Assembly (NCBI RefSeq): GCF_900156475.1
Contig: NZ_FTNR01000021.1
Span: forward strand, 1-34,518
Direction: 5' to 3'
Origin: Natronorubrum thiooxidans
Lineage (GTDB): Archaea > Halobacteriota > Halobacteria > Halobacteriales > Natrialbaceae
Length of the DNA stretch: 34,518 bases
Shown: one piece after another, positions 17,064-34,518 of the stretch
Position numbering within the stretch: the first letter of the stretch is position 1
Layout of the letters: each line of letters begins with the position of its first letter
Position numbers and translations under genes: made by a program
The notes under the pieces: model-generated
The model's input: the letters and a program-made list of their open reading frames with translations, nothing else
What the model was told of the DNA's origin: nothing
Databases searched by the model: none

Positions 17064-17165
17064 TCACCCGAGCAGCCATTCACTGTTGCGATATTTCGAG
17101 CCACATTTGGGACAGTCGGTATGAGGACATCTCCACGTTAGTTCACAAGAATATCCGGAAGGTCG
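17064..17165 (-). pseudogene. Zinc-ribbon-like reading frame without a start
   Basis: A 33-codon open frame on the minus strand ends WRCPHTDCPKCGSKYRNSEW-LLG, a plausible zinc-ribbon C-terminus with CxxxxC and CxxC spacing. No ATG, GTG or TTG lies in frame after the preceding stop. The frame overlaps the end of the 232-residue gene in another register. It may be the tail of a broken gene, or an alternative C-terminus of its neighbour reached by a frameshift. Nothing else is visible in 16,895-17,137. Confidence 0.2.
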
Positions 17166-17836
17166 TCATGTGACTGGTTCGGAAACACATATCGACTACT
17201 TCGGATCCCCTCGTTTCCGAAAATAGGAAATCGCTCCTCCTGAGCCGTATTTCCACCCTCTTTCAGTTCAACAACCACTCCGTCCCCATGGACTGTAACG
17301 ACGTTGTACACTTCGTTTTCCAGCGTATCGTGAATAGTGACTTCACGGAGTTGCTTCGTAACATCCCACAGGGTTCCGAGAGGCACGATGAACGTGGCAC
17401 TTCCATTTTCTTCTTTAAACTGATGGCGTTCGGTACAGAACGCATATCGGTCAAGCCGGTGGCGAACGCCATCGAAGTCACCGTTGAGTCCTTGAGTGAC
17501 TCCTCTGACAATCGCATCGTACATTCGGTTACTAACCGCTTCCCGAAGCTTTGTTGCGTCTTCTTCGGCGGCAAGGGCAACGACGGTCGATTCGTCAAGG
17601 ACACTCCTCTCAAGGTCACCCGGAACGATCTCGTCACATTCTGCTTCTCCAATATGCAAATCAAACTCCAAACGCAACTTCGAGCCAATCGGATGGGCAG
17701 AAATCTCTCTGAAAATATTGTCGGGCTTGATCCGCTCTGTGTCTCTATTTTCGCTCACCGACTCCACAAGTTCCGCGAGTTTCGAAGCCTCGATATTTGA
17801 CTTCTGCATCGTGCTCGAGGATCGTTTATCGTTCAT
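17138..17836 (-). CDS. Unrecognised 232-residue protein, partner of GHKL-like gene
   Basis: I do not recognise this protein. It is soluble, acidic and mixed alpha/beta, with no membrane helix, no cysteine motif and no nucleotide-binding loop. The N-terminal third is helical and Lys/Glu-rich (KLAELVESVSENRDTERIKPDN). The middle holds RLEFDLHIGEAECDEIVPGDLE and VALAAEEDATKLREAVSNRMYDAIVRG. The C-terminal half is beta-rich, with NVVTVHGDGVVVELKEGG and RYVFPNQSHDDLPD. It begins 17 bp after the stop of the GHKL-like gene on the same strand, so the two are almost certainly co-transcribed. Codon use is less GC-biased than in the core genes to the left. Confidence 0.7.
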   Translation of the reverse strand: MNDKRSSSTMQKSNIEASKLAELVESVSENRDTERIKPDNIFREISAHPIGSKLRLEFDLHIGEAECDEIVPGDLERSVLDESTVVALAAEEDATKLREAVSNRMYDAIVRGVTQGLNGDFDGVRHRLDRYAFCTERHQFKEENGSATFIVPLGTLWDVTKQLREVTIHDTLENEVYNVVTVHGDGVVVELKEGGNTAQEERFPIFGNEGIRSSRYVFPNQSHDDLPDILVN

Positions 17837-17853
17837 CTGTGACGATTCCGAAC

Positions 17854-18387
17854 TCAGAGATCACGCAGTCTCCGAACGCTAGAAGCGTTCTCGTCTGTGT
17901 TAACCGAAACGAGTGCTGTCCATTCGCTTTCGTCGAGTGCAGCGTATTCCCGGAGCTCCGCTTCAGAGATACGTTCGCAGATGTCGTCAGGAGCATCGAG
18001 GTTCACAACCTCGACACGCGTACCACCTTCCCAATATCCGGAATTGAATTCTGTGATCTGGTACTCAGGGGGATTCTCACTTGACGCTCGCCACACCTGC
18101 CCGTCTTTTTTGGTGACGACATGAACCTCCTCAGCACCGTAGAACGGCACATCCTCTGCGGACGCGTCGAAGAATCTCTCGAATTCCGTGGGTGCCGTAC
18201 CCTCTCCGTCATCTTCGACAATGATCACGGGCCCAGCCTCCTCAACCCGAATGTCGATGCCGATCTGATCGGGGTCACGCTCGTACGCAGCACCAACGAG
18301 GTCAAGAACGGCAAGCTTGGTTGGCATGGTCGAATCGCTCTCATCAGATTCAGACATCTCGGCGCCGTCGTTATCGTGTGTGTTCAT
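17854..18387 (-). CDS. GHKL/Hsp90-type ATPase-fold protein, degenerate N-box
   Basis: This 177-residue protein has residues 21-130 resembling the N-terminal half of the Hsp90/MutL/histidine-kinase ATP-binding fold. LAVLDLVGAAYERDPDQIGIDI aligns with the N-box helix (ELVxNAxDA). IIVEDDGEG is the G1 box DxGxG (Asp 59, Gly 61, Gly 63). After a lid-like region, EGGTRVEVVNL matches the closing 'GTxVxV' strand. The catalytic Glu is Asp 29, and the Mg-binding Asn is Ala 33, so ATP binding is possible but hydrolysis is doubtful. The N-terminal 20 residues are disordered and acidic. It is the first gene of a two-gene minus-strand operon. A stand-alone domain of this kind is unusual. Confidence 0.65.
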   Translation of the reverse strand: MNTHDNDGAEMSESDESDSTMPTKLAVLDLVGAAYERDPDQIGIDIRVEEAGPVIIVEDDGEGTAPTEFERFFDASAEDVPFYGAEEVHVVTKKDGQVWRASSENPPEYQITEFNSGYWEGGTRVEVVNLDAPDDICERISEAELREYAALDESEWTALVSVNTDENASSVRRLRDL

Positions 18388-18751: not shown

Positions 18752-20158
18752 GTGGGATCGAACTCATCACCGCCTAAAGAAGAAGTGACAGAACTTCCAG
18801 ACTACCTATCTGTAGAATCTGGCTACCAGCCTCGAGTAGAAACTCGGCACCTCGAGACGCTCCAACCCCATCCCCTTAACGAACGTACGTACGGCGACCG
18901 GACTGATCTTAAGGAAACATTCCTTGACTCCATCGAGAACAATGGAATTCACACCCCACTTATTGTCACCCCTACTGACCTGATTATCTCGGGTCACCGG
19001 CGATGGGAGGCCGGCAAACAGCTTGACCTTGAGATAGTACCGGTCATCGTTCAAGAGTTCGCCGATGAACTCGACCAAAAGGAAGCTTTGATCGATCTCA
19101 ACCGCCAGCGAGATAAGACCTTCAGCCAGAAAATGCGAGAATCCGAGGTGCTACACGAGATTGAGGCTGCCCGGGCACGTCAGCGTCAAGGCCAGCGTAC
19201 AGACCTTCGGGAAAACGTACCCGATAGTGAGGTTTCTGAGTTCGCGCGTACTCGCGATGTCGTCGCCGAGAAAATCAACATTGGGTCTGGCAAGACCTAT
19301 GACTACGCCCGCACCGTCTGGGAGGCCGCTCAAGACGACGATCCAGTCGCAGTCAACCAAGTCAATAAACTAGACCGTGGCGATCAATCTATCAGCGGGG
19401 CCTACAAGATGGTACATCAACGCCACCCTTCTGAGTCCTCGGATACTGGAACCCCATCCGCGGCTACCCCCACCGACAAGGATGGCACATCATCCGACAA
19501 GGGAGAAATCCTCTCGCCGGACGAGTTAATTCTCTCAGCTCACATCGGCACGAACGAGGATCTATTCCCGGATATTCTTGACCTGCACGTCGAGAAAGGC
19601 GCAGTAATCGCAGACGTCACCTTCGGTAAAGGCGTTTTCTGGAAACAAGTTGACGTTGATGCGTACGAACTTCGCGCGACAGACATTCAGCCAGAACGTT
19701 CTCCGAGCGACAACTCCGGAGTCAACTATCACGACCTTCCGTACGACGACAGCGAACTCGACTCGGTCGTCTTCGATCCGCCCTACGCTAGTGGTCTATA
19801 CAATGAAGATCGGCGCGATGGTGACGAGGAAGCGTGGATTGTTGAACAGTACGGTACCGTCTTCGAAGGCAAACGTACTGGCCACGATGCGGTACTTCAC
19901 GAGTATGCCGGCGGAGCGAAGGAAGCGAAACGCGTGCTTCGGGAGGGAGGAACGTACATCGTGAAGACGATGGACGAAGTAGCTAGCGGCAAGCAACATC
20001 TCACCCATGTTGAAATCATTGAAATTTGTGAAGAGTTAGGGTTCACTACGACCGATTTGTTTGTCCTTGTTGGACAGACCACACCATCGTCACAAGGAAT
20101 TGTAACACAGCAGCACGCTCGAAAGAACCACTCGTACTTCCTCGTCTTCACCGCCTAA
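18752..20158 (+). CDS. ParB-like domain fused to DNA methyltransferase
   Basis: This 468-residue protein has three parts. Residues of about 30-105 are a ParB/sulfiredoxin-like domain, with GIHTPLIVTPTDLIISGHRRWEAGK containing the GHRRWEA motif (81-87). Residues of about 120-230 are a helical DNA-binding linker rich in Arg, ending in a disordered Ser/Thr/Asp stretch. Residues of about 245-468 are an amino-methyltransferase, with motif I DVTFGKGVFW (Asp 288) and motif IV DPPY (342-345), so N6-adenine or N4-cytosine methylation is likely. The start is GTG, supported by a GAGGAG Shine-Dalgarno 12 bases upstream. No restriction enzyme gene adjoins it. Similar fusions occur in phages and integrated elements. 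Confidence 0.88.
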   Translation: MGSNSSPPKEEVTELPDYLSVESGYQPRVETRHLETLQPHPLNERTYGDRTDLKETFLDSIENNGIHTPLIVTPTDLIISGHRRWEAGKQLDLEIVPVIVQEFADELDQKEALIDLNRQRDKTFSQKMRESEVLHEIEAARARQRQGQRTDLRENVPDSEVSEFARTRDVVAEKINIGSGKTYDYARTVWEAAQDDDPVAVNQVNKLDRGDQSISGAYKMVHQRHPSESSDTGTPSAATPTDKDGTSSDKGEILSPDELILSAHIGTNEDLFPDILDLHVEKGAVIADVTFGKGVFWKQVDVDAYELRATDIQPERSPSDNSGVNYHDLPYDDSELDSVVFDPPYASGLYNEDRRDGDEEAWIVEQYGTVFEGKRTGHDAVLHEYAGGAKEAKRVLREGGTYIVKTMDEVASGKQHLTHVEIIEICEELGFTTTDLFVLVGQTTPSSQGIVTQQHARKNHSYFLVFTA

Positions 20159-20192
20159 AAGAGCAGGTAACTCGTAACCGAGGCTTCCATAA

Positions 20193-20348
20193 CCGCCCCA
20201 TCATGTAGCGGCAGTAGGATCGACATCGTGGTATTCTGCCATTTCCGTTCTCGGCGAGATCATTGATGGATTCATCAATCTCTACGAGTTTGCGCCCAAA
20301 CAGTGGCCAGACGACTCCAGCTGGCAAGTGGTCAAGATCGACGACTGA
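20193..20348 (+). pseudogene. C-terminal remnant of an unrecognised gene
   Basis: An open frame of 51 codons has no start codon and ends LGEIIDGFINLYEFAPKQW-PDDSSWQVVKIDD before TGA at 20348. The composition is coding-like, and it follows the ParB-methyltransferase on the same strand. It looks like the tail of a truncated gene. Between 20,349 and 20,627 I see no further gene. Confidence 0.3.
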
Positions 20349-20627
20349 CCACCATTTTCTCCCTGTTTTTCATCGGAACTCGAGGGGGTGGTCACTCACG
20401 TTCAATGTGCAAGACCTTGCGGGAACGTGTGGAGCTAATCGCCAGATAGCAGAACTCGTGAAACGTACCCCGGCAATACGGGGCATACGAAACGAAATGG
20501 TCTGCAGCCCGCCACGCCGGCATTCAAGTTGAGAGCAACCGGAGGAATCAGGTGGGTGGTAGGGAGGTCACTCGCAGAAGGGATGGGACGATGACGGCAC
20601 GGGACAGGAGGCCCGTACGCTCTACTC

Positions 20628-21008
20628 TTAGCAGTCACCGAACCTGTTGTCGCCGTAACCTCGCCAATCCTCGATCACCTCGCGGAGCGCCCGCCGGGCA
20701 CGCGTCTGGAACGCCACCGGATCCGCCTTACCGGACGGATCCACGTCCGGCGGGTAGTCCTCCTCCACGGTCAACTCGTGCATCGCGTCCGCACGCCTCT
20801 GGATCAGCCTGTCCATCCAGTCCTCGTGGTTGGCGGCCCACGCCAACGCCGCCGTCACGTCCGCCACGTCCAGCCCGCGCTCGTCCGCGTACTCCTCGAC
20901 GGATTGTGTCGAGCCACCCAGCTGTAGAACCACGGTCAGCACGGGGAGTCTCCGGCCAGCAATGCGTGGCTCCCCATCCATGGGTATCTCGACATGCGCG
21001 CTAACCAT
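20628..21008 (-). CDS. DUF433 (VapB45-like antitoxin family) protein
   Basis: This 126-residue protein opens with the DUF433 pattern EIPMDGEPRIAGRRLPVLTVV (the family's 'GKPxIRGTRIPV') followed by the helix-turn-helix VEEYADERGLDVADVTAALAWAANHEDW. DUF433 proteins are often antitoxins partnered with PIN or DUF5615 nucleases, but no such toxin is adjacent. The C-terminal 50 residues (DYPPDVDPSGKADPVAFQTRARRAL) are outside the usual domain. Its ATG overlaps the stop of the preceding gene by eight bases (ATGGTTAG), so translation is coupled. This start was preferred over an upstream ATG at 21017 for that reason. Confidence 0.8.
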   Translation of the reverse strand: MVSAHVEIPMDGEPRIAGRRLPVLTVVLQLGGSTQSVEEYADERGLDVADVTAALAWAANHEDWMDRLIQRRADAMHELTVEEDYPPDVDPSGKADPVAFQTRARRALREVIEDWRGYGDNRFGDC

Positions 21009-21321
21009 CGAGCACACCCTCGATCATCCCGCGCATATGCTGGTTCTGACGCCAGTAGTACGCGACGCGACGCCGTTCCCGCCGCTCACTCGCGTCCATC
21101 TCCGAGATAATGCCCTCCTCCAGTTCACGCGGGCCGTCGACATCGTACTCGTCGCACCATTCGCGTTCCTCCTCGTCCATCCGCGCGAGCTCCGCTCTGA
21201 GCTCCTTATCGGGCTGGTCGGCCAGTTCCTCGCGCTTCTCCTCGCGTAGTTTCTCTTCGTCATAGTCGGGAAGGGATAGTGGCTCCGTCTCTCCGTCGAC
21301 ATCCTCGATGTCCTCGAGCAT
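21001..21321 (-). CDS. Acidic helical protein coupled to DUF433 gene
   Basis: I do not recognise this 106-residue protein. It starts MLEDIEDVDGETEPLSLPDYDEE and is very rich in Glu, Asp and Arg, with long predicted helices (EKLREEKREELADQPDKELR; DASERRERRRVAYYWRQNQ). It ends MRGMIEGVLDG. There is no membrane segment and no catalytic motif. It is the first gene of an overlapping pair with the DUF433 gene. By position it could be the toxin or an accessory factor, but its charge pattern resembles neither PIN nor RelE. The inner ATG 21321 is used because upstream sequence in the same frame is Arg/Pro-rich noise. Confidence 0.6.
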   Translation of the reverse strand: MLEDIEDVDGETEPLSLPDYDEEKLREEKREELADQPDKELRAELARMDEEEREWCDEYDVDGPRELEEGIISEMDASERRERRRVAYYWRQNQHMRGMIEGVLDG

Positions 21322-21623
21322 ACCTGCTACTACGCTCTGACGACACTTCGTTCCTATCAATAAAGTTATGGATAGCGGAGGGTAGCAACGGGAGCGTGGC
21401 CGCCCGCCGAACGCGGCGGACGGTCGATGACTCCACCTGAACCACCGCCGAAGCGGGCTTATCGGAGTGGGCGGCGAACCCCCATTAGGTGGTTCGCTGG
21501 CGTTCCTCCTGTGGCCCGTCCGGCACACGCGTTTCTCTCGTGAAACTCCAAAAACGCTGCCCCGAGGGCATTAACGCCGACTACACGCAGACATTTATCC
21601 GACAGGACAGGTGACGAGCAGGT
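21322..21623. other. Gene-free divergent interval
   Basis: These 302 bp lie between the DUF433 operon and a small plus-strand gene. A TATA-like ACATTTATCCG at about 21,590-21,600 suits the plus-strand gene, and CTTTATTG at about 21,356-21,363 suits the minus-strand operon. No further gene is visible. Confidence 0.35.
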
Positions 21624-21797
21624 ATGGACGAACTCAACGAGATCAAGTCGAAACTCGCCATGGCCAGTTCAGGACTTCACAAAACCCTCGAAAACGCAGA
21701 AGACATCGAAGAAGTCGACGATGAAGCCCTCGACAACATCGAGACCGCCCGCGACGCCGCCCGCCGCGCACTCGAACTCATCGACGGTGATGAATAG
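21624..21797 (+). CDS. Small acidic helical protein (57 residues)
   Basis: This short frame from ATG 21624 to TAG 21797 starts MDELNEIKSKLAMASSGLH and ends RRALELIDGDE. It is a single amphipathic helix pattern with Ala/Leu heptads and GC-ending codons typical of halophile genes. It is convergent with the serine recombinase, with nine bases between the stops, and has a TATA-like box about 30 bp upstream. It could be a recombinase accessory or regulatory factor; similar tiny proteins accompany haloarchaeal resolvases. The function is unknown. Confidence 0.6.
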   Translation: MDELNEIKSKLAMASSGLHKTLENAEDIEEVDDEALDNIETARDAARRALELIDGDE

Positions 21798-21806
21798 GCC
21801 GCCGGG

Positions 21807-22568
21807 TCAGTCGTCAGCGCGGTCGATCTCGTCAAGGGCTGCATCCACGCGCTCGTCCTCGGCTTCCTCCTCAAGATACCACCGCCGCCGTTCGTCGTCC
21901 TTGTGAATGTTCATGAGTGTCTGCCGCGTGCAGTTTGGAATCTCTCGGGCGGCCTCACGATAGGACGCTCCATCCTCGATGGCCTCGAGTGCCCGGACGA
22001 CGTCGAGGTAGCTAGTCTCACCCTCTTCGTAATCGGGAGAGAGGTTGGGGTGGAGGTAGCCCTCATCACTACGAGCAAAGCCGGTCGGCGTCTGGCCAAG
22101 CCACTTCCCTTCTCGCCGGGCGCGACGAAGGCCGGACTTGGTGCGGCGGATGATCTGCCTGCGTTCCTCAGTGTAGACCATCCCGACGACATCGGCGACG
22201 AACCGATTCGTGCCGTCGGGCTTGATCTTGTCCACCTTCCCGTTGGTGATGTGGACGGTGACGCCGTTGTCCTCGCACGCGTCGAAGAACTCCTGAATGA
22301 TGGAGCCGCGCCGGCCGATGCGGCTGATCTCCCAGACCACGACGTGATCGAGTTCGCCGTTCTTGATGCGGTCGAGGAGTTCGAGGTAGTCTTCGCGGTC
22401 GCGCGTGCTCCCGCTGACATCAAGGTCAACGTAATTGGTGATCTCAGTGGGATCGATGGCGGTGTTCTCCTCAAGCCACCTGTCGAGGTCATGCATCTGG
22501 TGCGACTTCTCCTGCGTGTCGGTGCTGGCGCGAATGTACTTCGCGTAATCCTTGGTATCGTCAATCAT
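21807..22568 (-). CDS. Serine recombinase (resolvase/invertase family)
   Basis: This 253-residue site-specific recombinase has an N-terminal resolvase domain with the catalytic motif YIRASTDTQEKS (Ser 15). Further landmarks are VVWEISRIGRRGSIIQEFFDACEDNGV with the conserved Arg pair, and MVYTEERRQIIRRTKSGLRRARREGKWLGQTPTGFA leading out along the long E-helix. The C-terminal part carries a helix-turn-helix (DGASYREAAREIPNCTRQTLMNIHK) and an acidic tail. The length is between small resolvases (about 190) and large integrases (about 500). It presumably drives movement or resolution of the local element. The start is the ATG at 22568, and a 14-base palindrome lies about 75 bp upstream. Confidence 0.92.
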   Translation of the reverse strand: MIDDTKDYAKYIRASTDTQEKSHQMHDLDRWLEENTAIDPTEITNYVDLDVSGSTRDREDYLELLDRIKNGELDHVVVWEISRIGRRGSIIQEFFDACEDNGVTVHITNGKVDKIKPDGTNRFVADVVGMVYTEERRQIIRRTKSGLRRARREGKWLGQTPTGFARSDEGYLHPNLSPDYEEGETSYLDVVRALEAIEDGASYREAAREIPNCTRQTLMNIHKDDERRRWYLEEEAEDERVDAALDEIDRADD

Positions 22569-22643
22569 ACTTTGTGAGTGGTTAGGCGGGCCAGAGGGGT
22601 TGCCAGTTTACCGCAGAGGCTCCACTTAAAGAACCGCTCTCGC

Positions 22644-22657
22644 TTACAGGCCTGTAA
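22644..22657. promoter_or_regulatory. 14-base palindrome upstream of recombinase
   Basis: TTACAGGCCTGTAA is a perfect palindrome 76-89 bp upstream of the recombinase start and about 210 bp upstream of the histone-fold operon. A dyad of this size fits a dimer-binding operator or a resolution half-site pair. The 298-bp gap around it (22,569-22,866) has no gene. Confidence 0.45.
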
Positions 22658-22866
22658 ACGAACATCCGTCCGTGCAACCACTCTATCCGGATCCAAGCTA
22701 TCACCTCGGATAAACGCCGGCCCGGTGCAACCCCCAACCGCGACGAACGCGTGTCCGCGAACTCCGTTTTGAACCTCGGTCGCTAATCTGGAACGAGACC
22801 GGTCAGGAAGACGAACACTCTCCAACTGTAGAAAGGACTATTTGACCCCAATGACAGGTAGGAGTC

Positions 22867-23250
22867 ATGGCTGTTGAGGGAGAGGACTCCGAACAAGCAG
22901 AAACAGAAGAAAACGATACCGAAGACATCGCACCCCCGGTCAAACCAACCTCACTGAAACGATTCGTCAAACAGCACTCCGATCTGAATGCAGGCGGTGA
23001 TGCAGTCGACGAACTGCAACACCATCTCGAATTCGTCGCGGAGAGAATCTGGCTTGAAGCCAGCAAACACGCCGAGGACGACGGTCGCAAGACAGTGAAA
23101 GAACGCGACGTGCAACACGCTATTGACCAGTTCACGGAGCCTCACGATCTGATCAAGAAGACCACGGAGCAACTGGACTGGATGAAACGTAATCTCGATA
23201 GACAGGTTGAACAGTCCATCGTCTACGCCGAAGACAGATATGACGACTGA
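22867..23250 (+). CDS. Single histone-fold protein with acidic N-tail
   Basis: This is a 127-residue protein. Residues 1-25 are an acidic, disordered tail. Residues of about 27-90 form a histone fold: helix 1 TSLKRFVKQHS, long helix 2 DAVDELQHHLEFVAERIWLEASKHAEDDG, then GRKTVKERDVQHAIDQF. The last matches the loop-2/helix-3 signature of archaeal histones (GRKTIKxxDIxxA in HMfB). Residues 91-127 add a C-terminal helical extension (LIKKTTEQLDWMKRNLDRQVEQ) absent from ordinary archaeal histones. Known haloarchaeal histones are two-fold fusions, so this is not the housekeeping one. The stop overlaps the next gene by 11 bases, so translation is coupled. GGAG lies four bases before the ATG. Confidence 0.82.
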   Translation: MAVEGEDSEQAETEENDTEDIAPPVKPTSLKRFVKQHSDLNAGGDAVDELQHHLEFVAERIWLEASKHAEDDGRKTVKERDVQHAIDQFTEPHDLIKKTTEQLDWMKRNLDRQVEQSIVYAEDRYDD

Positions 23251-24730
23251 CCAATTCCTCTTCAGGGACGGATACTCCATTCCAGAGAAAATCCGCCGAA
23301 TTCCAACCGGGAGAATCACGGCGGAAACTCCTGAGATTGACTCTCGGCTCCAAGACCTCTCCCTGTCAGAGAACGAGGTCAGTCGGATGGGGAAGAACGA
23401 CTTCTTCGACGAAGCCGAGGAACAACTCTCTACCTCGGCATACAGAAGCTTCGTCTCCAAACTCTTCGACAAGTACGGCGAGGAGGGTGACAAGTTCAAC
23501 ATGCAGCTCTTCGTCGCCGAGGAATCCCTCTCTCGCGAACATCTCGCACGCCGCGTCAATCAATACAACGAGGAACGGATTGACCGCGACTTCGACTCAC
23601 TCGTTGAACCCATCGTCCTCACCAATCACGAAGAGAACTCCAACTCCATAGACCTACAGTTCCGAACAACGGCCCACCTTGAGGACATCAACCCGGACGA
23701 CAAAATACCAATTCAGATCATCGACTCTGAGACCGGTAACACCGTGGATCGATACGGTGCAGACTACCACATCAAGGCCCCCGCCCGCTACCGAGTTGAG
23801 ACACGGGTCTACACAGAAACCGGGCTCACCGCGGTGTCGAACTACTCCAAGATCAAGGACGGTCTGAAGACAGACATAGCTAAGACCGTCACCGAGATGG
23901 CCCGAAGTGGGGTGCAGACCGGCGTCGGAAGCACGCACCGGTTGGAAATGAACGAGACGGAGCTCCTACTCCTCCTGCAGGAGATGGAGGGTGACATCTC
24001 AGGACTCGGTTACACTCTTGAAATCGCCGGAGTGGACACGGCCGACTTCACCGGACAGCGGGACGAAGATATGGTTGACACCGAGGTTATCCGTGCTGCC
24101 GACGAGGCTGGCCAGATCAGAAAGATCAAATACTACGTCGATCATCCCGGCGCAGACCCAGATGACGAGCGCGACGTGATGCTCCGAATCTTCGACGACG
24201 GCCACCTCACCACGTCCAAACCGGTGCCCTCCGATCTCCTTGACGTCATCGTCCTCCAGATAAACACCATTCGGGGGTACGATGGATTCCTAACCCCACT
24301 GATCGAACTCATCTACTCCTACGTCGGCGCGAAGTTCCGCGGCAAGTCCTCGATGATGCGGAACTCCCACATCTCAAAGACCAACCTTGCATTCAACAAT
24401 CTCATCGAGGAGTACTTCGAGAAGAACCAGACTCCGACAGAAGAGCTTCGCCTGTACAAGTCGATGATCGCTAACATCGGGATAAAGCTCTGCGACGAAG
24501 GCATTCCAAGAACCGCCGACATGGACGAGGTTTCCGAGGTGGACGACTTCTACGATCTTCAAGGCAAAATCGAGGAGTTCTTCCAAGACTACTCGCAACG
24601 GTCACTTGGAAAGACGAGCATCGATTACGATGAGCTGTCCAACCACCTAAACCACCTACTCCAACAAGACTGGGAGAGTCCAGTCGAAATCATCGAGTAT
24701 GCGATAGACCTGTATGATCTTAGCCGATGA
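23240..24730 (+). CDS. Unrecognised 496-residue protein of histone-fold operon
   Basis: I do not recognise this protein. It is soluble and has no membrane helix, Walker motif or cysteine cluster. Residues of about 1-110 are helical and charged (LSLSENEVSRMGKNDFFDEA). Residues of about 115-320 are beta-rich, with SIDLQFRTTAHLEDINPDDK, ARYRVETRVYTETG and HRLEMNETELLLLLQEME. Residues of about 330-496 are again helical, including LTPLIELIYSYVGAKFRGK and a C-terminal run of helices ending in VEIIEYAIDLYDLSR. The start is ATG inside the histone-fold gene's last codons (overlap ATGACGACTGA). Its own end overlaps the third gene by 17 bases. The coupling implies a stoichiometric complex of the three products. 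Confidence 0.72.
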   Translation: MTTDQFLFRDGYSIPEKIRRIPTGRITAETPEIDSRLQDLSLSENEVSRMGKNDFFDEAEEQLSTSAYRSFVSKLFDKYGEEGDKFNMQLFVAEESLSREHLARRVNQYNEERIDRDFDSLVEPIVLTNHEENSNSIDLQFRTTAHLEDINPDDKIPIQIIDSETGNTVDRYGADYHIKAPARYRVETRVYTETGLTAVSNYSKIKDGLKTDIAKTVTEMARSGVQTGVGSTHRLEMNETELLLLLQEMEGDISGLGYTLEIAGVDTADFTGQRDEDMVDTEVIRAADEAGQIRKIKYYVDHPGADPDDERDVMLRIFDDGHLTTSKPVPSDLLDVIVLQINTIRGYDGFLTPLIELIYSYVGAKFRGKSSMMRNSHISKTNLAFNNLIEEYFEKNQTPTEELRLYKSMIANIGIKLCDEGIPRTADMDEVSEVDDFYDLQGKIEEFFQDYSQRSLGKTSIDYDELSNHLNHLLQQDWESPVEIIEYAIDLYDLSR

Positions 24731-25907
24731 AGCCGATGTGCTAGAGGAAGCCTTCTTTCGGGCCGACGTGAGCGACGTCACTAGTCTCGAATTCCGGGAG
24801 CAAGACCTGATGGAATACGCCGACTTCCTCCACATAGAACGGGACATCATCCCCGACATCCGCCCGTACTTCTCCATCTCTGAAGATCAGCGGTGCGAGA
24901 AACACGGCATCGCGACTTCCTCGTGCGGCTGCGGCGAGTCAAGGCAAGTTCTAGCTTCGGTCTACCGACTTGACCCCGATTCCCTCATTGAGGACTGGGT
25001 TGACGCGGTGCGCAACAGATCCATCTTCGACTCCGTCGAACTGGAGCAGATCGACTCCACGAGATACATCCTGAATGCGTGGCTGGATCGAATCCAGATC
25101 ACCTTCCATTGCTTCTTCAACAAGGATGAAATGGAGAGACACGATTTCGAGCCACAGGCGATGGAGTTCGGCGTCTCGTTCTTCGGCGATCAACTGGTGG
25201 TTGAACGGGAACACCGCTACTCGTGGCGTGAGTTCCTCAATGACGATTTCGAGGACAAAATCACGACGGACGTCAAACACCTGAAAGAGGCCATCGGATC
25301 CGATTTTTACGAGTACAACCCACTCGAGGACTTCCGTGACCGAGTACGGCAGAGTCTACGCGACTATTTCGAGGACTCGGGATACGAGGTGCGGCGTGAG
25401 GTGAGAGAAATATGTCCGGTGGAAACTACGCAGTACGACATCGACACGGGGAAGACCGACTTCGTGGCCCACCGCGACGGCTCGAAGTTCATCGTCTGTC
25501 ACTGCGAGAAGACGCCGAGCTGGCACGTCCACCACTTCTCGAACGGTCGCATCAAGTCCGCTGAGCAGACTCCGATTATCGAGGATATGACGGAGAAGAT
25601 TGAGTCCAAGATCAACACGTATCAGGACATCAGACTGAACAAACAGACCGCCTCGAGGTTTGTAACCGTTCTCGCTACGTTCTTCTCCATCGGTTTTGTT
25701 GTCCTCCTATTCGAGCGCCTCGGTCTGATCGCGTCCGTCCTGCAGGAACAGTTCCAAGTCGGCGGTAATCTGCAATTGATTGCGTTCCTCTTGCTCATCT
25801 TCAACGCCATCGCGGCTATCGCACTCGCCGCAGTTGTCACTCGCCCGTACGTCCGCGATTTCCGTTTCAGTTGGAAGATCGAACCTTTCGAGGCGGAACA
25901 GCGGTGA
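24714..25907 (+). CDS. Two-helix membrane protein of histone-fold operon
   Basis: This 397-residue protein matches no family I recognise. Residues 1-310 are soluble: an early cysteine cluster CEKHGIATSSCGCGE (about 61-75) that could bind metal, an aromatic-rich middle, and near 215-270 a strand pattern (GYEVRREV, then TDFVAHRDGSKFIVCHCEK). The last is faintly like a restriction-endonuclease fold but without a proper (D/E)xK. Two membrane helices follow near the C-terminus (about 316-334 and 355-377), leaving both ends on the same side and a short basic, aromatic tail. Translation starts within the preceding gene. The protein probably anchors the histone-fold complex to the cytoplasmic membrane; that is inference. 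Confidence 0.72.
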   Translation: MILADEADVLEEAFFRADVSDVTSLEFREQDLMEYADFLHIERDIIPDIRPYFSISEDQRCEKHGIATSSCGCGESRQVLASVYRLDPDSLIEDWVDAVRNRSIFDSVELEQIDSTRYILNAWLDRIQITFHCFFNKDEMERHDFEPQAMEFGVSFFGDQLVVEREHRYSWREFLNDDFEDKITTDVKHLKEAIGSDFYEYNPLEDFRDRVRQSLRDYFEDSGYEVRREVREICPVETTQYDIDTGKTDFVAHRDGSKFIVCHCEKTPSWHVHHFSNGRIKSAEQTPIIEDMTEKIESKINTYQDIRLNKQTASRFVTVLATFFSIGFVVLLFERLGLIASVLQEQFQVGGNLQLIAFLLLIFNAIAAIALAAVVTRPYVRDFRFSWKIEPFEAEQR

Positions 25908-25973
25908 AGGACGGAGACTGAACGTGATCACCCGGCGCCAACCTACAAGTCGAGCAGCCATCTACGTCTACAC

Positions 25974-26072
25974 GTGACCGACGACGAAGAGGAAGTCATC
26001 GAGGAACGCGCGCACCTGCTTGACAACGAGGAGAACCTCGAACAGATCGACGAACTGATCGACGATCTCTGA
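25974..26072 (+). CDS. Possible 32-residue acidic peptide gene
   Basis: GTG at 25974 opens a frame ending at TGA 26072 that encodes a strongly acidic helical peptide (MTDDEEEVIEERAHLLD, ending IDELIDDL). The codon use is typical of halophile genes. It follows the three-gene operon by 66 bp on the same strand. Nothing similar is known to me, and the coding status rests only on composition and position. Confidence 0.35.
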   Translation: MTDDEEEVIEERAHLLDNEENLEQIDELIDDL

Positions 26073-26203
26073 CTTCGGCAACGTCCGTCGCCGGGATCAC
26101 GGACACTCCACATGCGCCCTACTCAATGTCCCGGTCGCCGCTATACACTCAAGACCCGGCGCGCGACGCGATCGCCGGCAGAGCCAAGCCGATCACACTA
26201 CCA

Positions 26204-26848
26204 CTACGCGTCCACCAGTCCGTGTCTCATCGCCCGCCACGCGAACCACAACATCCCGAAAACTAGACCAAAAAAGTGAGAACCCACCGACACACCGTCC
26301 GGGCTAGATTCGAGGCCAGCAAAACGTTGGACGGTCGCCCACCCGTTCACGGTCAAGAACACGGTCGCCAACAACATTAGCACCGCGACGGCCACCTCCT
26401 GCCAGTCGAACTCGAAGTCGCTGAGATCCTCCAACTGTCCGCTGAAACCGACGAGAAGAGCGGGGATCGCGTAACTGGTCAGGGCCTTCGTCAGCCCGCT
26501 CGCTCCCTGAGACCAACCCCCGAGACCCCACAGAGGTGGAACATGGAGGGCGAGGTAGGGGATCAACACCGCGAAGGCAAGGAAAGGAATCGAATCCACC
26601 CGACGCTCCGCGTAGATGCCGAGCGGGATGAAGAACGCCATGTTGTTCCAGAAGTGTGACCACCCGGAGTGCATCCACGGAGAGAGGAAGAAGTACTTCG
26701 CCGTAGTGTCGGGGACGGGATCTAGAAGGTAGAGCCCAACCATCCAGACCGTCAGGAGAGCGGTCGCCCACGGCACGACATCTCGGTTCACTATCGGTGA
26801 GAGTACCGCAGAGTGACAAATATCCCCGGATCTCTCCACGAGGAGCAC
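26204..26848 (-). CDS. Rhomboid-family intramembrane protease
   Basis: This 214-residue polytopic membrane protein has rhomboid hallmarks. HSGWSHFWNNM (His 60, His 65, Asn 69) fits the HxxxxHxxxNM motif of helix 2. GASG (115-118) supplies the catalytic Ser 117, and His 191 in VGSHFFGLVFG supplies the catalytic His. Six hydrophobic helices are recognisable. The Ser-His dyad cleaves transmembrane substrates within the bilayer. There are no flanking genes on the same operon: its start faces a plus-strand HTH remnant. It could process the membrane protein of the neighbouring histone-fold operon, but only adjacency suggests that. The first 20 residues may be over-called. Confidence 0.85.
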   Translation of the reverse strand: MLLVERSGDICHSAVLSPIVNRDVVPWATALLTVWMVGLYLLDPVPDTTAKYFFLSPWMHSGWSHFWNNMAFFIPLGIYAERRVDSIPFLAFAVLIPYLALHVPPLWGLGGWSQGASGLTKALTSYAIPALLVGFSGQLEDLSDFEFDWQEVAVAVLMLLATVFLTVNGWATVQRFAGLESSPDGVSVGSHFFGLVFGMLWFAWRAMRHGLVDA

Positions 26849-26883
26849 TTACCGCCGCAGAAGACGGATCCCACACCGTGTAA

Positions 26884-27075
26884 CTCAACACGGTAGACTC
26901 GCCCCAATCGAAACTCGTCTTCCTCTATCTAGACGCGAACGGCCCCTGCTCACTGGAACAGCTCGCCGACGAACTGGACGCCAGCCTACTCACAACGCAG
27001 GGCATCATTAGTAACCACCGCGACCATTACAGGTTCCACTGGGATCAAGGCTACGCACACGGCGAGAGGTGTTGA
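26884..27075 (+). pseudogene. Winged-HTH fragment without a start codon
   Basis: An open frame of 63 codons ends at TGA 27075. It reads SPQSKLVFLYLDANGPCSLE, then QLADELDASLLTTQGIISNH, a clear winged helix-turn-helix. No ATG, GTG or TTG follows the upstream stop (26881-26883). Either the 5' end was lost, or an unusual start is used. It is divergent from the rhomboid gene. Between 27,076 and 27,222 nothing else is seen. Confidence 0.4.
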
Positions 27076-27222
27076 AGCACGTCGAAATAGGGAGGCCGCA
27101 CGTGCGGGAGAATTTTCCACGAGGTCGTTGGTTCGATTTGATTGCGGATGAACGACACCCGTCTTCTCAACCATTTCGTTCACCAGCGACCGGGAAGTTC
27201 TCCTCTAACGGTCGAAGGCTGC

Positions 27223-27621
27223 CTACGAGGTGACGTTGAGGTGGCTCGAGTACCAGCCTGCACCCTCTTGATCGAGTGCTCCGTGAAAGATCTTGTTCAG
27301 CCGGATGTCCACGTCGTCATCGGGGATAACCGGCTCATCCCAGAACTCGACGTCGTCGACGACGAATTGAACGCGCGGGTTCTGGTTCAGGAGATAGTTG
27401 ACGCGTTCAGAGAGAAGACGGTGAAGATGGTCGCAGATTTCGTCGGCGTCATCGGCGCCTCGGAGATAGTCGTCGAGACCGTAGACGGTCACGTCGAAGG
27501 GGATGTCTCCCATGAAGTTGACCCGACGGAGAAACTCGACTATGCTCATCTCGGCGTCGAAGGTGTCTCCCTCGCCGACGACATCGCGCGAGACGACGTG
27601 GTATCCAATATCGAAGTTCAT
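27223..27621 (-). CDS. Unrecognised 132-residue protein downstream of BREX-like operon
   Basis: I do not recognise this small acidic protein, which starts MNFDIGYHVVSRDVVGEGD. It has alternating strand/helix segments (IPFDVTVYGLDDYLRGADD, ICDHLHRLLSERVNYLLNQ, RVQFVVDDVEFWDEP) and a C-terminal SSHLNVTS. No metal, nucleotide or membrane motif is visible. It follows the methyltransferase gene on the same strand by about 110 bp, but has its own TATA box at leaderless distance, so it is probably transcribed separately. Its place at the end of a defence-type operon suggests an accessory or regulatory role. Confidence 0.65.
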   Translation of the reverse strand: MNFDIGYHVVSRDVVGEGDTFDAEMSIVEFLRRVNFMGDIPFDVTVYGLDDYLRGADDADEICDHLHRLLSERVNYLLNQNPRVQFVVDDVEFWDEPVIPDDDVDIRLNKIFHGALDQEGAGWYSSHLNVTS

Positions 27622-27640
27622 CTTATTGCTGTCAACTGAG

Positions 27641-27650
27641 TCGTTATATC
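27641..27650 (-). promoter_or_regulatory. TATA box of the 132-residue gene
   Basis: On the minus strand the sequence is GATATAACGA, centred about 24 bp before ATG 27621, consistent with a leaderless transcript. The A/T-rich TTTAAGTGATATAAC stands out in the short gap between two minus-strand genes. Confidence 0.55.
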
Positions 27651-27688
27651 ACTTAAATCTCGGTTCTATGACCGCGGCGGGGTGTTGT

Positions 27689-27711
27689 CCGGCTGGGAGC
27701 AGCCCAGTCGG
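27689..27711 (-). terminator. Hairpin after the BREX-like operon
   Basis: CCGGCTGGG (27689-27697) pairs with CCCAGTCGG (27703-27711), giving nine pairs with one G-U around a five-base loop. It begins 17 bases beyond the methyltransferase stop and precedes the promoter of the next gene. No U-run follows, so it may be a processing or stability element rather than a terminator. Confidence 0.4.
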
Positions 27712-27728
27712 AGCTAACGATCACCGAG

Positions 27729-30392
27729 TTAGCTGAAATCCTGTAGGTCGAGCTGGGTATCGGAGCGCTCCTCGACGTAGTCCGCGATGTCGGCGTAGTC
27801 CTCGTCGTTCTCAATCTCTGCCAGCCGGCGCAGCGCCGCAATCGAACCCTCCGTCGTCCACTTCCCGAACTTCTGGGCGAGTTGGTCGGTCTCGAACAGG
27901 TACTTCAGGTAGTGGGCTTCGTCGACGGCGAGCGGGTCACGCTTTCCGTCGATGCGGTTGGCGCGTGCCTCGGGCGAGAGGATACGGAGTTGGTCGCCCT
28001 CCTGTTCGAGCAGCCCCTCGTTGACGAGTTCGGAGACGTCGACGCCGCGCGTCCGGAGGTCTTTGTTCAGCGCGTTGTACGAGACGGTGTCGCCGCGCCC
28101 GAGTACGTACGTGAGGTAGATGGCGCTGAGCGTGTCCATCTCGTCGCTCATGATCTGGACGCGTTCGGCCATCAACTGCTCGTCGACGATGTCCCGAATC
28201 GTTTCGAGCGCCTGCTCGACGGACATCTGCTCGCCGTCAGCCGTCACGTTCGGGTAATGCTCGGAGTACACTTCGAGGCACTTCCCCATCGTGACCGCGA
28301 ACACGTCGCCCTGCGTGAGCCGTGACCCGCTCTCTTCGAGGCGGGTGATCTCCTCGCTGGCGCGGAAGTAGATGTCGTCCTCGAGAGATCGCCAGCTCAC
28401 CTCTTCGGGATCGTCGTCGCGATCGCGGCAGACGACGATCATGTCGTATTCGATGTTGGCTTTGTCGTGGATGTGCGTGCTGCCGCGCATCTCGCCGCGA
28501 ATCGGATACAGCGCGGTGACGTAGAACCCAGCGTCGAGAACCGACTGGAGGACGGTACTCCAGCCCTCAGTGGACTTGTGATGGTACGTGAACGCCATCA
28601 CGCCATCGTCCTTCAGTTTCTGGTTGGACTGGTCGAAGACGTTGGTCAGGCCCGTGACGAAGTGTTCCTCGTCGCGGTAGGTGTCCACGCTGTCTTCGCC
28701 AGCTGGGTCGCTGACGACCTCACTGGCCTTCGGGGTGAGTTCAGCAGTGAAGTGGTCGTATTCGTCCTCAAGCACCTGCTTCAGCCAGACGTAGTAGAAG
28801 TCCGCCGTCTCCGAGTACATCACGTTGTCAAAGTACGGCGGGTCGGTGATGACCGCGTCCACGCTGTTGTCCTCGATAGGGAGGTACTCGGACGTTCCAC
28901 ATCGGAGGTGGACGTTGCCCTCCTCGCCGAGGTCGTTAGGATCGTCAACGCGGTGGCCTTCGATTTTGCCGATGCCGTCCTTCTGCTTCGTCTCCCCGTC
29001 CTCGACGTACTTCTCGTACGGGATCTGGCAGAACTCCTTTCCCGCACGCATCTTGTCGAATTCACCGGTGAACGCTCCACGGCCGTATTTTGTACCCCAG
29101 ACGTTGTTCTCTACTGGGGTGTGCCTCGCCGTGATTGTGTGGCGTTTATAAATCCCGGTAAGTTTATTGTACGGTTTGTCATATTCACAGAAGACGTTGT
29201 TATACGCAAGCGAACTGGAGAACGCTAGCAGCAGGTACTCCTTGAGATTCTGATTTTCAATCTCATCTATTTCAGCCAGCAGTTTCGAAAGACAGAGCAA
29301 CTGCCGGTCATTGAACATCTGGTCATACGTCTTGAAACCGTGTTTTCGAGCACGGTCGGAACTCCCTCGGTACCGTTCTGTGGTCGGGAATGGGAGGTCA
29401 TCACGTTTGTCGTCTAGTTCATTTGATGCCTCTGCGAAGAGATTGCGGTCGAACTCTGTCGCCGGCTTGTATCCCTTCTCGTCCGCCTCTGGGCAGTAAT
29501 ACTCGACGGCATAGAGAGACTGATTGGCCTTTCCGAACCGCTCAACACTCTCGACAATAGACATCTCAGGATGCTCGTCGCAGTGTGGGCACGTGTAGGT
29601 TCCACGGCTCACGTTGCCCGCATCGTTGGGAACGTACTCGTGAGTACACTCGGGGCAAGTGGTCTCTGTGCGGTAGTCGTCGGTTTCAAAGACGTGCCAG
29701 CAGTCAGGACAGACCACGTTGTAATGGTCGTCCTTGGACGACCGAGCGTTAGCTAGTCGGTAGTCTTTGAATAGTGCGACATCTTCCCCGCAGTTCCGGC
29801 AAGGGAGTTCGTTGACCCAGAACTGATACATCGAGTCCGCGTAGTGGTCTTCGCCCTCGCAGTGCGGACATTCGGTACGGTAGTAGTCCTGAATCTCCTG
29901 TCCGACGCTCTCTTCAATCTCGTCCAGCGTAGCGTCAAGCTCGTCGAGATCGACCGGATCCACCTCTTTCTTCACGACGAACCACGCGACCGGGTTCAGT
30001 TCACTCCCGATAGCGTTACACCCCATCCGGATCGACTCGACGATGCTCGTCCCCCCTCCCATGAACGGGTCGAGGATGGTTTTCCCGTCGAAGTCGACGT
30101 CCTCTAGGTAGTATTCCCACAACGCGTCCGGATTCTCCCAGTCAATTTCAGGAAGGCCGTTGTCCTCGCCGAACGTGGACTGGCGCTCGCCGTCGACCGT
30201 CATCTCCTCGTCTGCGAGCGCGTAGAGGATCATCGTCCGGAACACCGACCCGAGGCGGCGTGCCCACCACTTGTGCATCGTGTAGACGGGCCGGTAGTAG
30301 CGTTTGGCGTGCGCTTCTTTTTCCGCGATTTCGTTCACTTGGTCGATGGGGAACGAGATTTCGAGAGGTCGACGGTCGTTGTCTTCTGACAT
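27729..30392 (-). CDS. DUF1156 adenine-specific DNA methyltransferase (PglXI type)
   Basis: This 887-residue methyltransferase belongs to the DUF1156/Zn-ribbon group (COG1743 type). The N-terminal DUF1156 signature is YTMHKWWARRLGSVFRTMI (about 38-56). SAM-binding motif I DPFMGGGT is at 108-115, followed by IGSELNPVAWFVVKKE. Residues of about 165-290 hold three CxxC zinc-ribbon clusters (CPHCEGE...CRNCG; CPDC...CPECTHEY; CPHCDEH). The catalytic DPPYFDNVMYSETADF is near 517. The C-terminal 300 residues are helical and presumably read the target. It modifies host DNA so that the defence complex spares it. Its start is three bases from the PglZ stop, and it ends the operon. Confidence 0.92.
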   Translation of the reverse strand: MSEDNDRRPLEISFPIDQVNEIAEKEAHAKRYYRPVYTMHKWWARRLGSVFRTMILYALADEEMTVDGERQSTFGEDNGLPEIDWENPDALWEYYLEDVDFDGKTILDPFMGGGTSIVESIRMGCNAIGSELNPVAWFVVKKEVDPVDLDELDATLDEIEESVGQEIQDYYRTECPHCEGEDHYADSMYQFWVNELPCRNCGEDVALFKDYRLANARSSKDDHYNVVCPDCWHVFETDDYRTETTCPECTHEYVPNDAGNVSRGTYTCPHCDEHPEMSIVESVERFGKANQSLYAVEYYCPEADEKGYKPATEFDRNLFAEASNELDDKRDDLPFPTTERYRGSSDRARKHGFKTYDQMFNDRQLLCLSKLLAEIDEIENQNLKEYLLLAFSSSLAYNNVFCEYDKPYNKLTGIYKRHTITARHTPVENNVWGTKYGRGAFTGEFDKMRAGKEFCQIPYEKYVEDGETKQKDGIGKIEGHRVDDPNDLGEEGNVHLRCGTSEYLPIEDNSVDAVITDPPYFDNVMYSETADFYYVWLKQVLEDEYDHFTAELTPKASEVVSDPAGEDSVDTYRDEEHFVTGLTNVFDQSNQKLKDDGVMAFTYHHKSTEGWSTVLQSVLDAGFYVTALYPIRGEMRGSTHIHDKANIEYDMIVVCRDRDDDPEEVSWRSLEDDIYFRASEEITRLEESGSRLTQGDVFAVTMGKCLEVYSEHYPNVTADGEQMSVEQALETIRDIVDEQLMAERVQIMSDEMDTLSAIYLTYVLGRGDTVSYNALNKDLRTRGVDVSELVNEGLLEQEGDQLRILSPEARANRIDGKRDPLAVDEAHYLKYLFETDQLAQKFGKWTTEGSIAALRRLAEIENDEDYADIADYVEERSDTQLDLQDFS

Positions 30393-30395
30393 AGA

Positions 30396-31286
30396 TTACT
30401 GTGTGAAAGTGATTCGGGGGGTGATGCATTCGGGGAGACTGAGGCCGCCGTGGGTGAACGTCGAGTACTTGCCGCGCGCCGGCCACGTGTACCGACCGAC
30501 TGGCATGTAGTACCCGTCCGCCTCAACGACGAGCCTTTCGCCGACGAGATCGTCCGCGTTTGTCTCGGCGACGCTCACGAACCGACCGCTGAACGTCTCC
30601 TGTAATCGGTTCTTCTGTGGCTCCGACACCGGGAACGTGTGACCTGCGTCCAGCCGCACGTACCCGTGGTCGGAACCGACGACGATTCGCTCGGCGTCAA
30701 GCTGATCGACGATCCGCTCGAACGTCCGCTCCGTCTTCTCGTACATCTCCTCGATGGAGGAGAGTTTCGTCTTCCCCTCCTGAATGTTCTCGAGGAGGGC
30801 GTCGGGGAACCGACACCACACGAGATCTTCGTCGCCGTCCAGCGACGGCTCGTCGCTCTTCACGGTGCCCGTCTTGTACTCCTTCTTGATGTCGGAGTAC
30901 CCGACGCGTTCGCGGTACGGCGTCGTCTCCGACGGCACCGTCGAGAACGAGTAGTCGACCGATGGATCGTAGCCCTCGTCGACGAGGAAGTCCACGAACA
31001 GCCCGGCCTCGCGGACGCTCATCGCGTCCATCACGACGAACGCACCGTCGTCGGGAATGTCGAGTGAAGCGTCGGTCACACACCGGTCGGGCAAGACGTC
31101 TTCGTAGAACTCGGCGTAGACGTCAAGCAGGAGTTCCTCGTACTGAACCATCTGACTCTCCCGGTCGTAGTGGTTGCTCACCGATTCCGACGCGGGCGAC
31201 CAGATACCCCACATCGCGTCCCACACACTCTCGACCGGGTCGTCGTCTTCGACCAGTCGGGTCAGTGCTTCAGTCCTGAACTTCAC
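30396..31286 (-). CDS. pglZ: PglZ-domain protein, short form
   Basis: This 296-residue protein belongs to the alkaline phosphatase superfamily (PglZ domain). Metal-site residues are visible in order: Asp 87 in VVMDAMSVREAGLF, Asp 206 and His 207 in VVGSDHGYV, and His 279 in THGGLSLPECITP. It is far shorter than BREX PglZ proteins, which are commonly above 600 residues, and lacks their N-terminal and C-terminal extensions. PglZ is one of the two proteins found in all BREX types and is thought to act as a phosphodiesterase or nuclease-like switch. Its start overlaps the DUF499 gene's stop by 17 bases. Its stop is three bases from the methyltransferase start, so the three form one translationally coupled operon. 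Confidence 0.87.
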   Translation of the reverse strand: MKFRTEALTRLVEDDDPVESVWDAMWGIWSPASESVSNHYDRESQMVQYEELLLDVYAEFYEDVLPDRCVTDASLDIPDDGAFVVMDAMSVREAGLFVDFLVDEGYDPSVDYSFSTVPSETTPYRERVGYSDIKKEYKTGTVKSDEPSLDGDEDLVWCRFPDALLENIQEGKTKLSSIEEMYEKTERTFERIVDQLDAERIVVGSDHGYVRLDAGHTFPVSEPQKNRLQETFSGRFVSVAETNADDLVGERLVVEADGYYMPVGRYTWPARGKYSTFTHGGLSLPECITPRITFTQ

Positions 31287-33801: not shown

Positions 33802-34041
33802 GATATTCTCTACTCGGTTAGTGCCTCACTTGATATTTTCCACATTCGTACGCGCCCCTGCAGTACTGTTCGACCGTCTATCCACTTCTGGCAGCGATGA
33901 AAATAACCTATCGCGTTGTTTAGGCTTGGAATTAGTTTTATTCAGCCGAAAACCCGTTCTGATGTCGTCTACGGCGTATTTCGGCTCTTGGGCCCTGACA
34001 CAGAGACAAGTCCATCGCTGACAGCTATTTTTGCGAGGTAG

Positions 34042-34299
34042 CTACCCGAGCAGTTCATCCACGGCGTCCTCCAGCTCGTCGTTCCCGTCAGCTTCGGCTT
34101 CGCCTTTACGCTGATCTTCGAGGCTCCCGAGACGGTCGCGGCCAACCTCAGTACCATATTCGGTACTTCCCGAACGTCGCTTCGTGAACTGTGCTGAGTC
34201 ATGGACGAACGGAGTGAATGCCGGTGTGGTAACTGAGTGAACAGGAAGTAGAATCCACGCATGAGGAGAAGTGAAGTAAGAAGGCTGAAATACGCTGTT
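34042..34299 (-). pseudogene. Detached C-terminal tail, in frame with edge gene
   Basis: An 85-codon open frame without a start codon ends at TAG 34042. Its final 50 residues look like a genuine protein tail (TKRRSGSTEYGTEVGRDRL, then EDQRKGEAEADGNDELEDAV). It is in the same register as the gene entering at the window edge. It is separated from that gene by two in-frame stops and a GC-rich duplication at 34,337-34,390. I infer that one longer gene was interrupted. Between 33,802 and 34,041 there is only promoter-like AT-rich sequence. Confidence 0.4.
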
Positions 34300-34336
34300 C
34301 TAGGTGAATGCTGTTGCTCACCAGGAGCTTGCCCAA

Positions 34337-34390
34337 GGCCGCGGGCTGGCGTCAGCCCGCGGCCGGCGCGGTCAGCCCGCGGCCGGCGCG
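34337..34390. repeat. Hairpin plus 20-base tandem duplication
   Basis: GGCCGCGGGCT (34337-34347) and AGCCCGCGGCC (34354-34364) form a perfect eleven-pair hairpin. The unit beginning GTCAGCCCGCGGCC occurs twice back to back (34351-34370 and 34371-34390). The second copy supplies the stop codon of the edge gene. The pattern suggests a slippage or insertion event that truncated the reading frame, or a strong structured terminator. Confidence 0.65.
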
Positions 34391-34518
34391 TATGCTTCTG
34401 GCACACCTGTTCCGTTCATCTCTATCTCCCAACTCCGCTCTAGCTCTTCCTCTAATGCATGTCTGATCCAGTCAGAGAAGGTCTTGAACGTGAATTCCTC
34501 GGGCAGGTCGCGCCCGCC
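34372..34518 (-). CDS. Partial gene entering at window edge (3' end only)
   Basis: The last 48 codons of a minus-strand gene run off the window. The residues include LPEEFTFKTFSDWIRHALEE, then ELERSWEIEMNGTGVPEAYA, then PAAG before TGA. The helix-rich acidic segment is clearly coding, but I cannot assign a family. It lies upstream of the DUF499-PglZ-methyltransferase operon on the same strand, so it could be the missing BREX-like partner (for example a helicase). The Ala/Pro-rich last residues come from the duplicated GC-rich repeat, which suggests that the stop is secondary. Confidence 0.55.
   Translation of the reverse strand, partial: GGRDLPEEFTFKTFSDWIRHALEEELERSWEIEMNGTGVPEAYAPAAG

Follow-up and report, generated by a model that had tools for sequence, protein, structure and literature searches.

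A mobile RdgC-histone operon of haloarchaea as a candidate for membrane-coupled defence

An "RdgC histone" operon has been described from Halobacteria and Bacillus, with functional coupling proposed and no function assigned (Schwab et al. 2024, Nat Commun 15:7950, PMC11390915). In Halobacteria the order of its genes is histone, RdgC-like protein and transmembrane protein. The histone has a large C-terminal helix and a conserved lysine in helix 1 (K34), and it is predicted to form a tetramer via a coiled-coil bundle and to belong to a DNA-bridging class; the second protein has an RdgC fold with small N- and C-terminal domains, and the third combines a transmembrane part with a winged-helix domain and is exclusive to the operon context (PMC11390915). 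The main text of that paper has no words for defence, kinetochore or RexA. Here we compare this operon with three genes of Natronorubrum thiooxidans that lie in positions 1-34,518 (forward strand) of contig NZ_FTNR01000021.1, assembly GCF_900156475.1, a stretch of 34,518 nucleotides that we call the window.

The three genes are all on the plus strand, at 22867-23250 (gene 1, 127 aa), 23240-24730 (gene 2, 496 aa from the ATG at 23240) and 24714-25907 (gene 3, 397 aa). Genes 1 and 2 overlap by 11 nt (23240-23250) and genes 2 and 3 by 17 nt (24714-24730), and the open reading frames (ORFs) are exactly those of the original prediction, which had been made from the window's sequence. As in the published operon of Halobacteria, the histone comes first and is followed by the large protein and then the transmembrane protein, an order seen in the window and in 15 other loci. 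The long C-terminal helix of the histone, a single conserved basic residue in its helix 1 and a membrane protein exclusive to the operon are also common to both, and we know of no difference between them. It is highly likely that the trio is the haloarchaeal RdgC-histone operon. The original prediction had called it a candidate new system; since the operon was published in 2024, it is not new in the sense of undescribed. Our additions to the published account are horizontal transfer as a cassette, the defence neighbourhoods and a split second gene. The H. volcanii exemplar, D4GVY1, was not found in 15 Haloferax genomes with gene 2, histone and PF00808 profiles, H. larsenii alone giving a match. 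A Haloferax histone-like ORF (L110) stands without the partner genes.

Relatives of the operon were gathered from whole genomes, GTDB contigs and plasmids. The complete trio was found at 16 distinct loci including the window, with gene 2 identities of 20-91% (halves counted separately). This count includes one locus in which gene 3 is broken around an ambiguous base (L033) and another with a run of unread bases inside gene 2 (L032). At three divergent loci blast missed the histone, and the small upstream ORF is a clear family member. When the same 293 genomes were searched separately with gene 2 and gene 3 profiles, the same 11 genomes were found (p ~4e-19, with one spurious gene 2 match in genome G219 set aside), and the protein 3 profile matched only genomes with gene 2. 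The originally predicted coupling, in which a large protein and a membrane protein accompany a histone, is conserved wherever the genes were found, and the trio is almost certainly one functional unit. We rejected the match in G219 (E 1e-3): its alignment covered no more than 129 residues (28% identity), and neither partner, histone or gene 3, turned up there.

Of the genomes sampled from the order, about 4% carry the operon, which lies on plasmids and on large chromosomal contigs; it is absent from the other five searched genomes of the window's own genus. No relative was found outside haloarchaea in a 295-genome sample of the phylum, nor was any found in viral and phage collections. A decayed operon copy is present in one further genome (L049:9936-10316), where a related histone is accompanied by an RdgC-like remnant that is truncated and stop-containing.

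To see how the trio moves, we turn to its closest copy, on a Halobaculum roseum plasmid (region L045 of NZ_CP082289). A blastn comparison of the whole window with this region gave one alignment, 22829-25895 on the plus strand, at 83% DNA identity, and megablast of 19000-34518 returned the same segment. This sole common segment runs from 38 bases upstream of the first start codon to 12 bases short of the end of the last gene; it holds only the three genes, which argues that the cassette moves as a unit. Gene 2 of the window is 91% identical to that of Halobaculum roseum, a member of the Haloferacaceae, and 70% identical to that of Natronosalvus, which belongs to the window's own family. The ratios of nonsynonymous to synonymous substitution rates (dN/dS) between the window and Halobaculum copies were 0.06, 0.05 and 0.10 for the three genes. 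All three are therefore under purifying selection and are not chance ORFs. Judged by these comparisons, the three genes are the unit of transfer and selection. No convincing flanking repeats were found at the cassette ends.

The first gene (22867-23250) encodes an RdgC-type histone with an acidic tail (residues 1-22), a histone fold (~27-91) and a long C-terminal helix up to residue 116. The protein scored above the cut-off of Pfam PF00808, which covers CBF/NF-Y and archaeal histones (E 6.4e-6, residues 42-86), and slightly under that of the NCBIfam archaeal histone model (E 2.5e-12). An AlphaFold2 model (pLDDT 65 overall, 79-87 in the core) has helices at 27-37 and 44-71 and a single long helix at 79-116, and in two structure comparisons the matches listed were histone folds, with a best Z of 6.6. 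These results confirm the predicted single histone fold, and the acidic N-tail and helical C-extension are both real. The loop-2/helix-3 motif (GRKTVKxxDV), which had been offered as a histone signature, is not kept across the family. The top match among PDB sequences was HmvA (8bdk, E 1.8e-9), a non-canonical archaeal histone and the closest solved relative by sequence; it is about 30% identical across the fold and is not known from such an operon. K35 of the window histone is K or R in all 15 family members compared, and we equated it with the published K34 by its place in helix 1, without direct alignment to D4GVY1. Elsewhere the same genome encodes an ordinary two-fold histone, and the cassette histone is therefore an extra one.

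The second gene (23240-24730) stands, in the published order, in the place of the "RdgC-like" gene. That its product has an RdgC fold is taken from the published operon, and our own data did not confirm the fold. Profile searches with proteins 2 and 3 against Pfam, NCBIfam, PADLOC and PHROGs gave no family match, which agrees with the original prediction. Gene 2 had no match among PDB sequences either, and no sequence kinship with RdgC or RexA appeared in profile comparison, PDB sequences, Pfam or PHROGs. For the poor structure model of this protein, the best PDB matches were several entries of the kinetochore protein CENP-N (E 0.05, probability 0.14). As these are all the same protein, they count as a single piece of evidence. 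Realignment of the low-confidence model gave a pyrin-like segment at 9-87 (Z 5.1, NLRP4 pyrin), a TBP/polo-box-like segment at 122-230 (Z ~3) and a CENP-N/RnlA-like segment at ~232-348 (CENP-N, Z 3.3-4.3). The protein may therefore have a helical N-domain that is perhaps pyrin-like (~9-87), followed by a pair of TBP-like segments (~122-230, then ~232-348) and a helical C-terminus.

On their own, these Z values prove little. They weigh more because of two independent facts, the place where the gene is split and a grouping in the literature. In six loci (L021, L024, L025, L026, L046 and L048) gene 2 is divided at ~226-230 into two overlapping or adjacent genes, and this site is the border of the two TBP-like segments in the weak structure matches. 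RdgC, RexA and IML3/CHL4 (CENP-L/N) have been grouped in a common two-domain fold (PMC11077077; PMC4080450). CENP-N and CENP-L (Chl4/Iml3) are inner kinetochore proteins, and CENP-N is a nucleosome reader; gene 2 resembles them in the weak pyrin-like and TBP-like matches of the low-confidence model, with no sequence match. A search of viral structures with the model returned only noise. RdgC was absent among the structure matches listed, an absence that has no weight at such model quality.

The third gene (24714-25907) encodes a membrane protein with a soluble body and two C-terminal hydrophobic helices at 316-334 and 356-374. These helices had been predicted and are kept in nearly all relatives: 14 of 15 homologs have at least two membrane helices and one (L021) has a single helix. 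The early Cys cluster that had also been pointed out is present in protein 3, near residues 61-74. It is missing from several homologs and was rejected as a family feature.

We scored known defence genes within ~10 kb of each locus; the scoring was not blind, and for three case loci it relied on plasmid annotation. Such genes were found near 8 of the 16 loci, or 7 of 16 when a DpdA-like protein, possibly a tRNA-modifying enzyme, is left out. They comprise BREX/Hma-like genes in the window, Druantia DruE with DrmMI (L018), DrmMI/type IIG (L021), a complete type I restriction-modification (R-M) system (L025), the DpdA-like protein (L027), an N-6 DNA methylase (L045), a helicase with BREX PglX and a methylase (L046), and Pycsar (L047). 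Comparable genes were present in 1 or 2 of 12 control regions from the same genomes (Fisher p 0.02-0.08). The association with defence is suggestive only.

What might this cassette do? One of the closest known parallels is the phage lambda pair RexA and RexB, in which a soluble DNA-binding protein and a protein with four membrane helices exclude phage; RexA has the RdgC fold, and mutants showed that exclusion does not depend mainly on DNA binding as such (PMC11077077). The analogy would therefore fix the kinds of parts and not their chemistry. The Rex proteins share with the cassette an RdgC-fold DNA-binding protein, known as such for RexA, and a membrane protein; unlike the cassette, they come without a histone and are encoded by a lysogen, and there is no sequence similarity. 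In Kiwa, likewise, the membrane protein KwaA and the DNA-binding KwaB act in defence, a combination like that proposed for the cassette. None of the three cassette proteins matched KwaA or KwaB in PADLOC at E <= 1.

Since the cassette has both of RexAB's kinds of parts together with a predicted DNA-bridging histone, we favour a membrane-coupled exclusion complex. Our point of departure is what the genomes display, namely gene content, coding constraint, strict coupling, unit mobility, the histone fold and the membrane helices, and from the cited papers we borrow the RdgC-like fold, the bridging-type tetramer and the kinship of RexA with RdgC. The cassette products very probably act as one complex. 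Histone tetramers, joined by their long C-terminal helices, would bridge double-stranded DNA or coat it. As a DNA clamp with two lobes and the RdgC/RexA fold, the RdgC-like protein would sit either on this histone-DNA complex or on foreign DNA that is being recombined or replicated, and it would signal to the membrane protein or be held by it. The outcome might be that invading DNA is sequestered at the membrane, or that the infection is halted by the membrane partner. Recruitment of a membrane complex to DNA by the histone-like subunit, as originally predicted, is plausible as a hypothesis. As a whole, a RexAB-like defence that is coupled to the membrane and uses a DNA-bridging histone is the best explanation that we can offer, and we hold it tentatively; that the target is foreign DNA and the role defence, which we infer, is possible and slightly more doubtful still.

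Several points weigh against this explanation. In hhalign profile comparisons, gene 2 showed no similarity to E. coli RdgC (probability 0.1-0.4%) or to RexA (0.5%), and protein 3 had no detectable similarity to RexB (0.2%). The result for gene 2 is uninformative because the same method likewise misses the accepted RdgC-RexA pair. RexB has only 144 residues and four predicted membrane helices as against 397 aa and two for protein 3, and the gene 2 model is poor (pLDDT 43.6, from an alignment of six sequences). For half of the loci, the surrounding ~10 kb held no recognised defence gene, and the controls were few and the scoring unblinded. Clustering with defence genes is common to mobile genes of every kind, and accessory genes cluster in general. 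The RdgC histone is also weakly expressed in H. volcanii and B. cereus (PMC11390915).

Other explanations have to be set beside it. That the three genes are unrelated neighbours is already contradicted by their overlaps, the 16 complete copies, the co-occurrence (p ~4e-19) and the transfer as a unit, and is most improbable. It could be speculated that they are cargo, passenger genes of plasmids or integrative elements without benefit to the host, and that the defence neighbours merely occupy the same hot spots. Recombinases or integrases do lie near several copies, and the defence association is only marginally above the controls; however, all three genes have been under strong purifying selection since the copies diverged (dN/dS 0.05-0.10), and we consider this improbable.

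Another possibility is element maintenance, in which the complex ties DNA of a plasmid or of the chromosome to the membrane or aids its segregation, with a histone, a CENP-L/N-type fold and a membrane anchor combined as in a kinetochore. Many copies are on plasmids, some of them near orc1/cdc6 and ParA genes, CENP-N recurs among the weak structure matches of gene 2, and the RdgC/RexA fold is common to the kinetochore IML3/CHL4 proteins (PMC11077077; PMC4080450). On the other hand, copies also sit on large chromosomal contigs (L021, L024, L025 and L026), and the replication and partition neighbours vary by locus, the cassette moving without them. The RdgC-like protein could instead restrain recombination of the RadA type on DNA that the histone bridges, its localisation at the membrane being secondary. 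This would suit a histone of the predicted DNA-bridging class (PMC11390915), although a patchy, mobile distribution and a near-absolute linkage to a membrane protein would be odd for a housekeeping modulator. We regard anchoring or segregation and recombination control as equally unlikely, and membrane-coupled exclusion is favoured over both.

The serine recombinase (21807-22568, minus strand; PF00239, E 5.6e-29) and the BREX/Hma-like operon (27729-33801, minus strand) that flank the three genes had suggested defence, element maintenance or membrane attachment of DNA. The copies are indeed patchy, mobile and often near defence genes; the recombinase and the BREX-like genes themselves were rejected as cassette parts and are neighbours only, because the window and the Halobaculum copy are similar only as far as the cassette edges. 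Relatives of the recombinase (28-30% identity) lie near two other operon copies. The BREX/Hma-like genes encode a DUF1156 methylase (27729-30392), a PglZ-like protein (30396-31286) and a DUF499 ATPase (31270-33801). PADLOC matched them to HmaB (E 6e-51), PglZ (2e-6) and HmaC (6e-19), and matches to the NCBIfam anti-phage DUF1156/DUF499 models were below the cut-offs. The PglZ-like protein of this minus-strand operon (27223-33801 overall) is short, at 296 aa. The operon has PglZ alongside HmaB/HmaC of the Hma type and is a poor fit to any standard type; little of the contig is left beyond it. The right end (34152-34518) matches transposase regions of the ISH3 family on several plasmids of haloarchaea at 92% identity.

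Directly past the cassette there is a short acidic ORF of ~32 codons (25975-26072). Small ORFs of ~55-78 aa are also annotated downstream of the operon in L045-L047. To the left of the recombinase, 18752-20158 encodes a 468-aa fusion of a ParB N-terminal domain and a weak N6/N4 DNA methylase domain. Two minus-strand genes at 17138-18387, encoding a 177-aa protein with a weak HATPase (gyrase B/HSP90-like) match and a 232-aa protein without a Pfam match, are possibly another defence pair.

The operon was known before without a function or a tested hypothesis; the mobility of the cassette, the purifying selection on its genes and its defence setting make it a testable defence candidate. In its fullest form the hypothesis is a transferable anti-virus or anti-plasmid system in which a bridging histone, a membrane partner and a reader of the RexA/RdgC/CENP-N type would jointly exclude foreign DNA, and this combination as a whole is rather unlikely. 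If true, it would provide a prokaryotic precedent for the pairing of histone and CENP-L/N in the eukaryotic inner kinetochore. Confirmation would make it a defence system whose DNA-binding part is a histone, and would link the RexA/RdgC fold with exclusion coupled to the membrane and with the CENP-L/N fold that reads histones.
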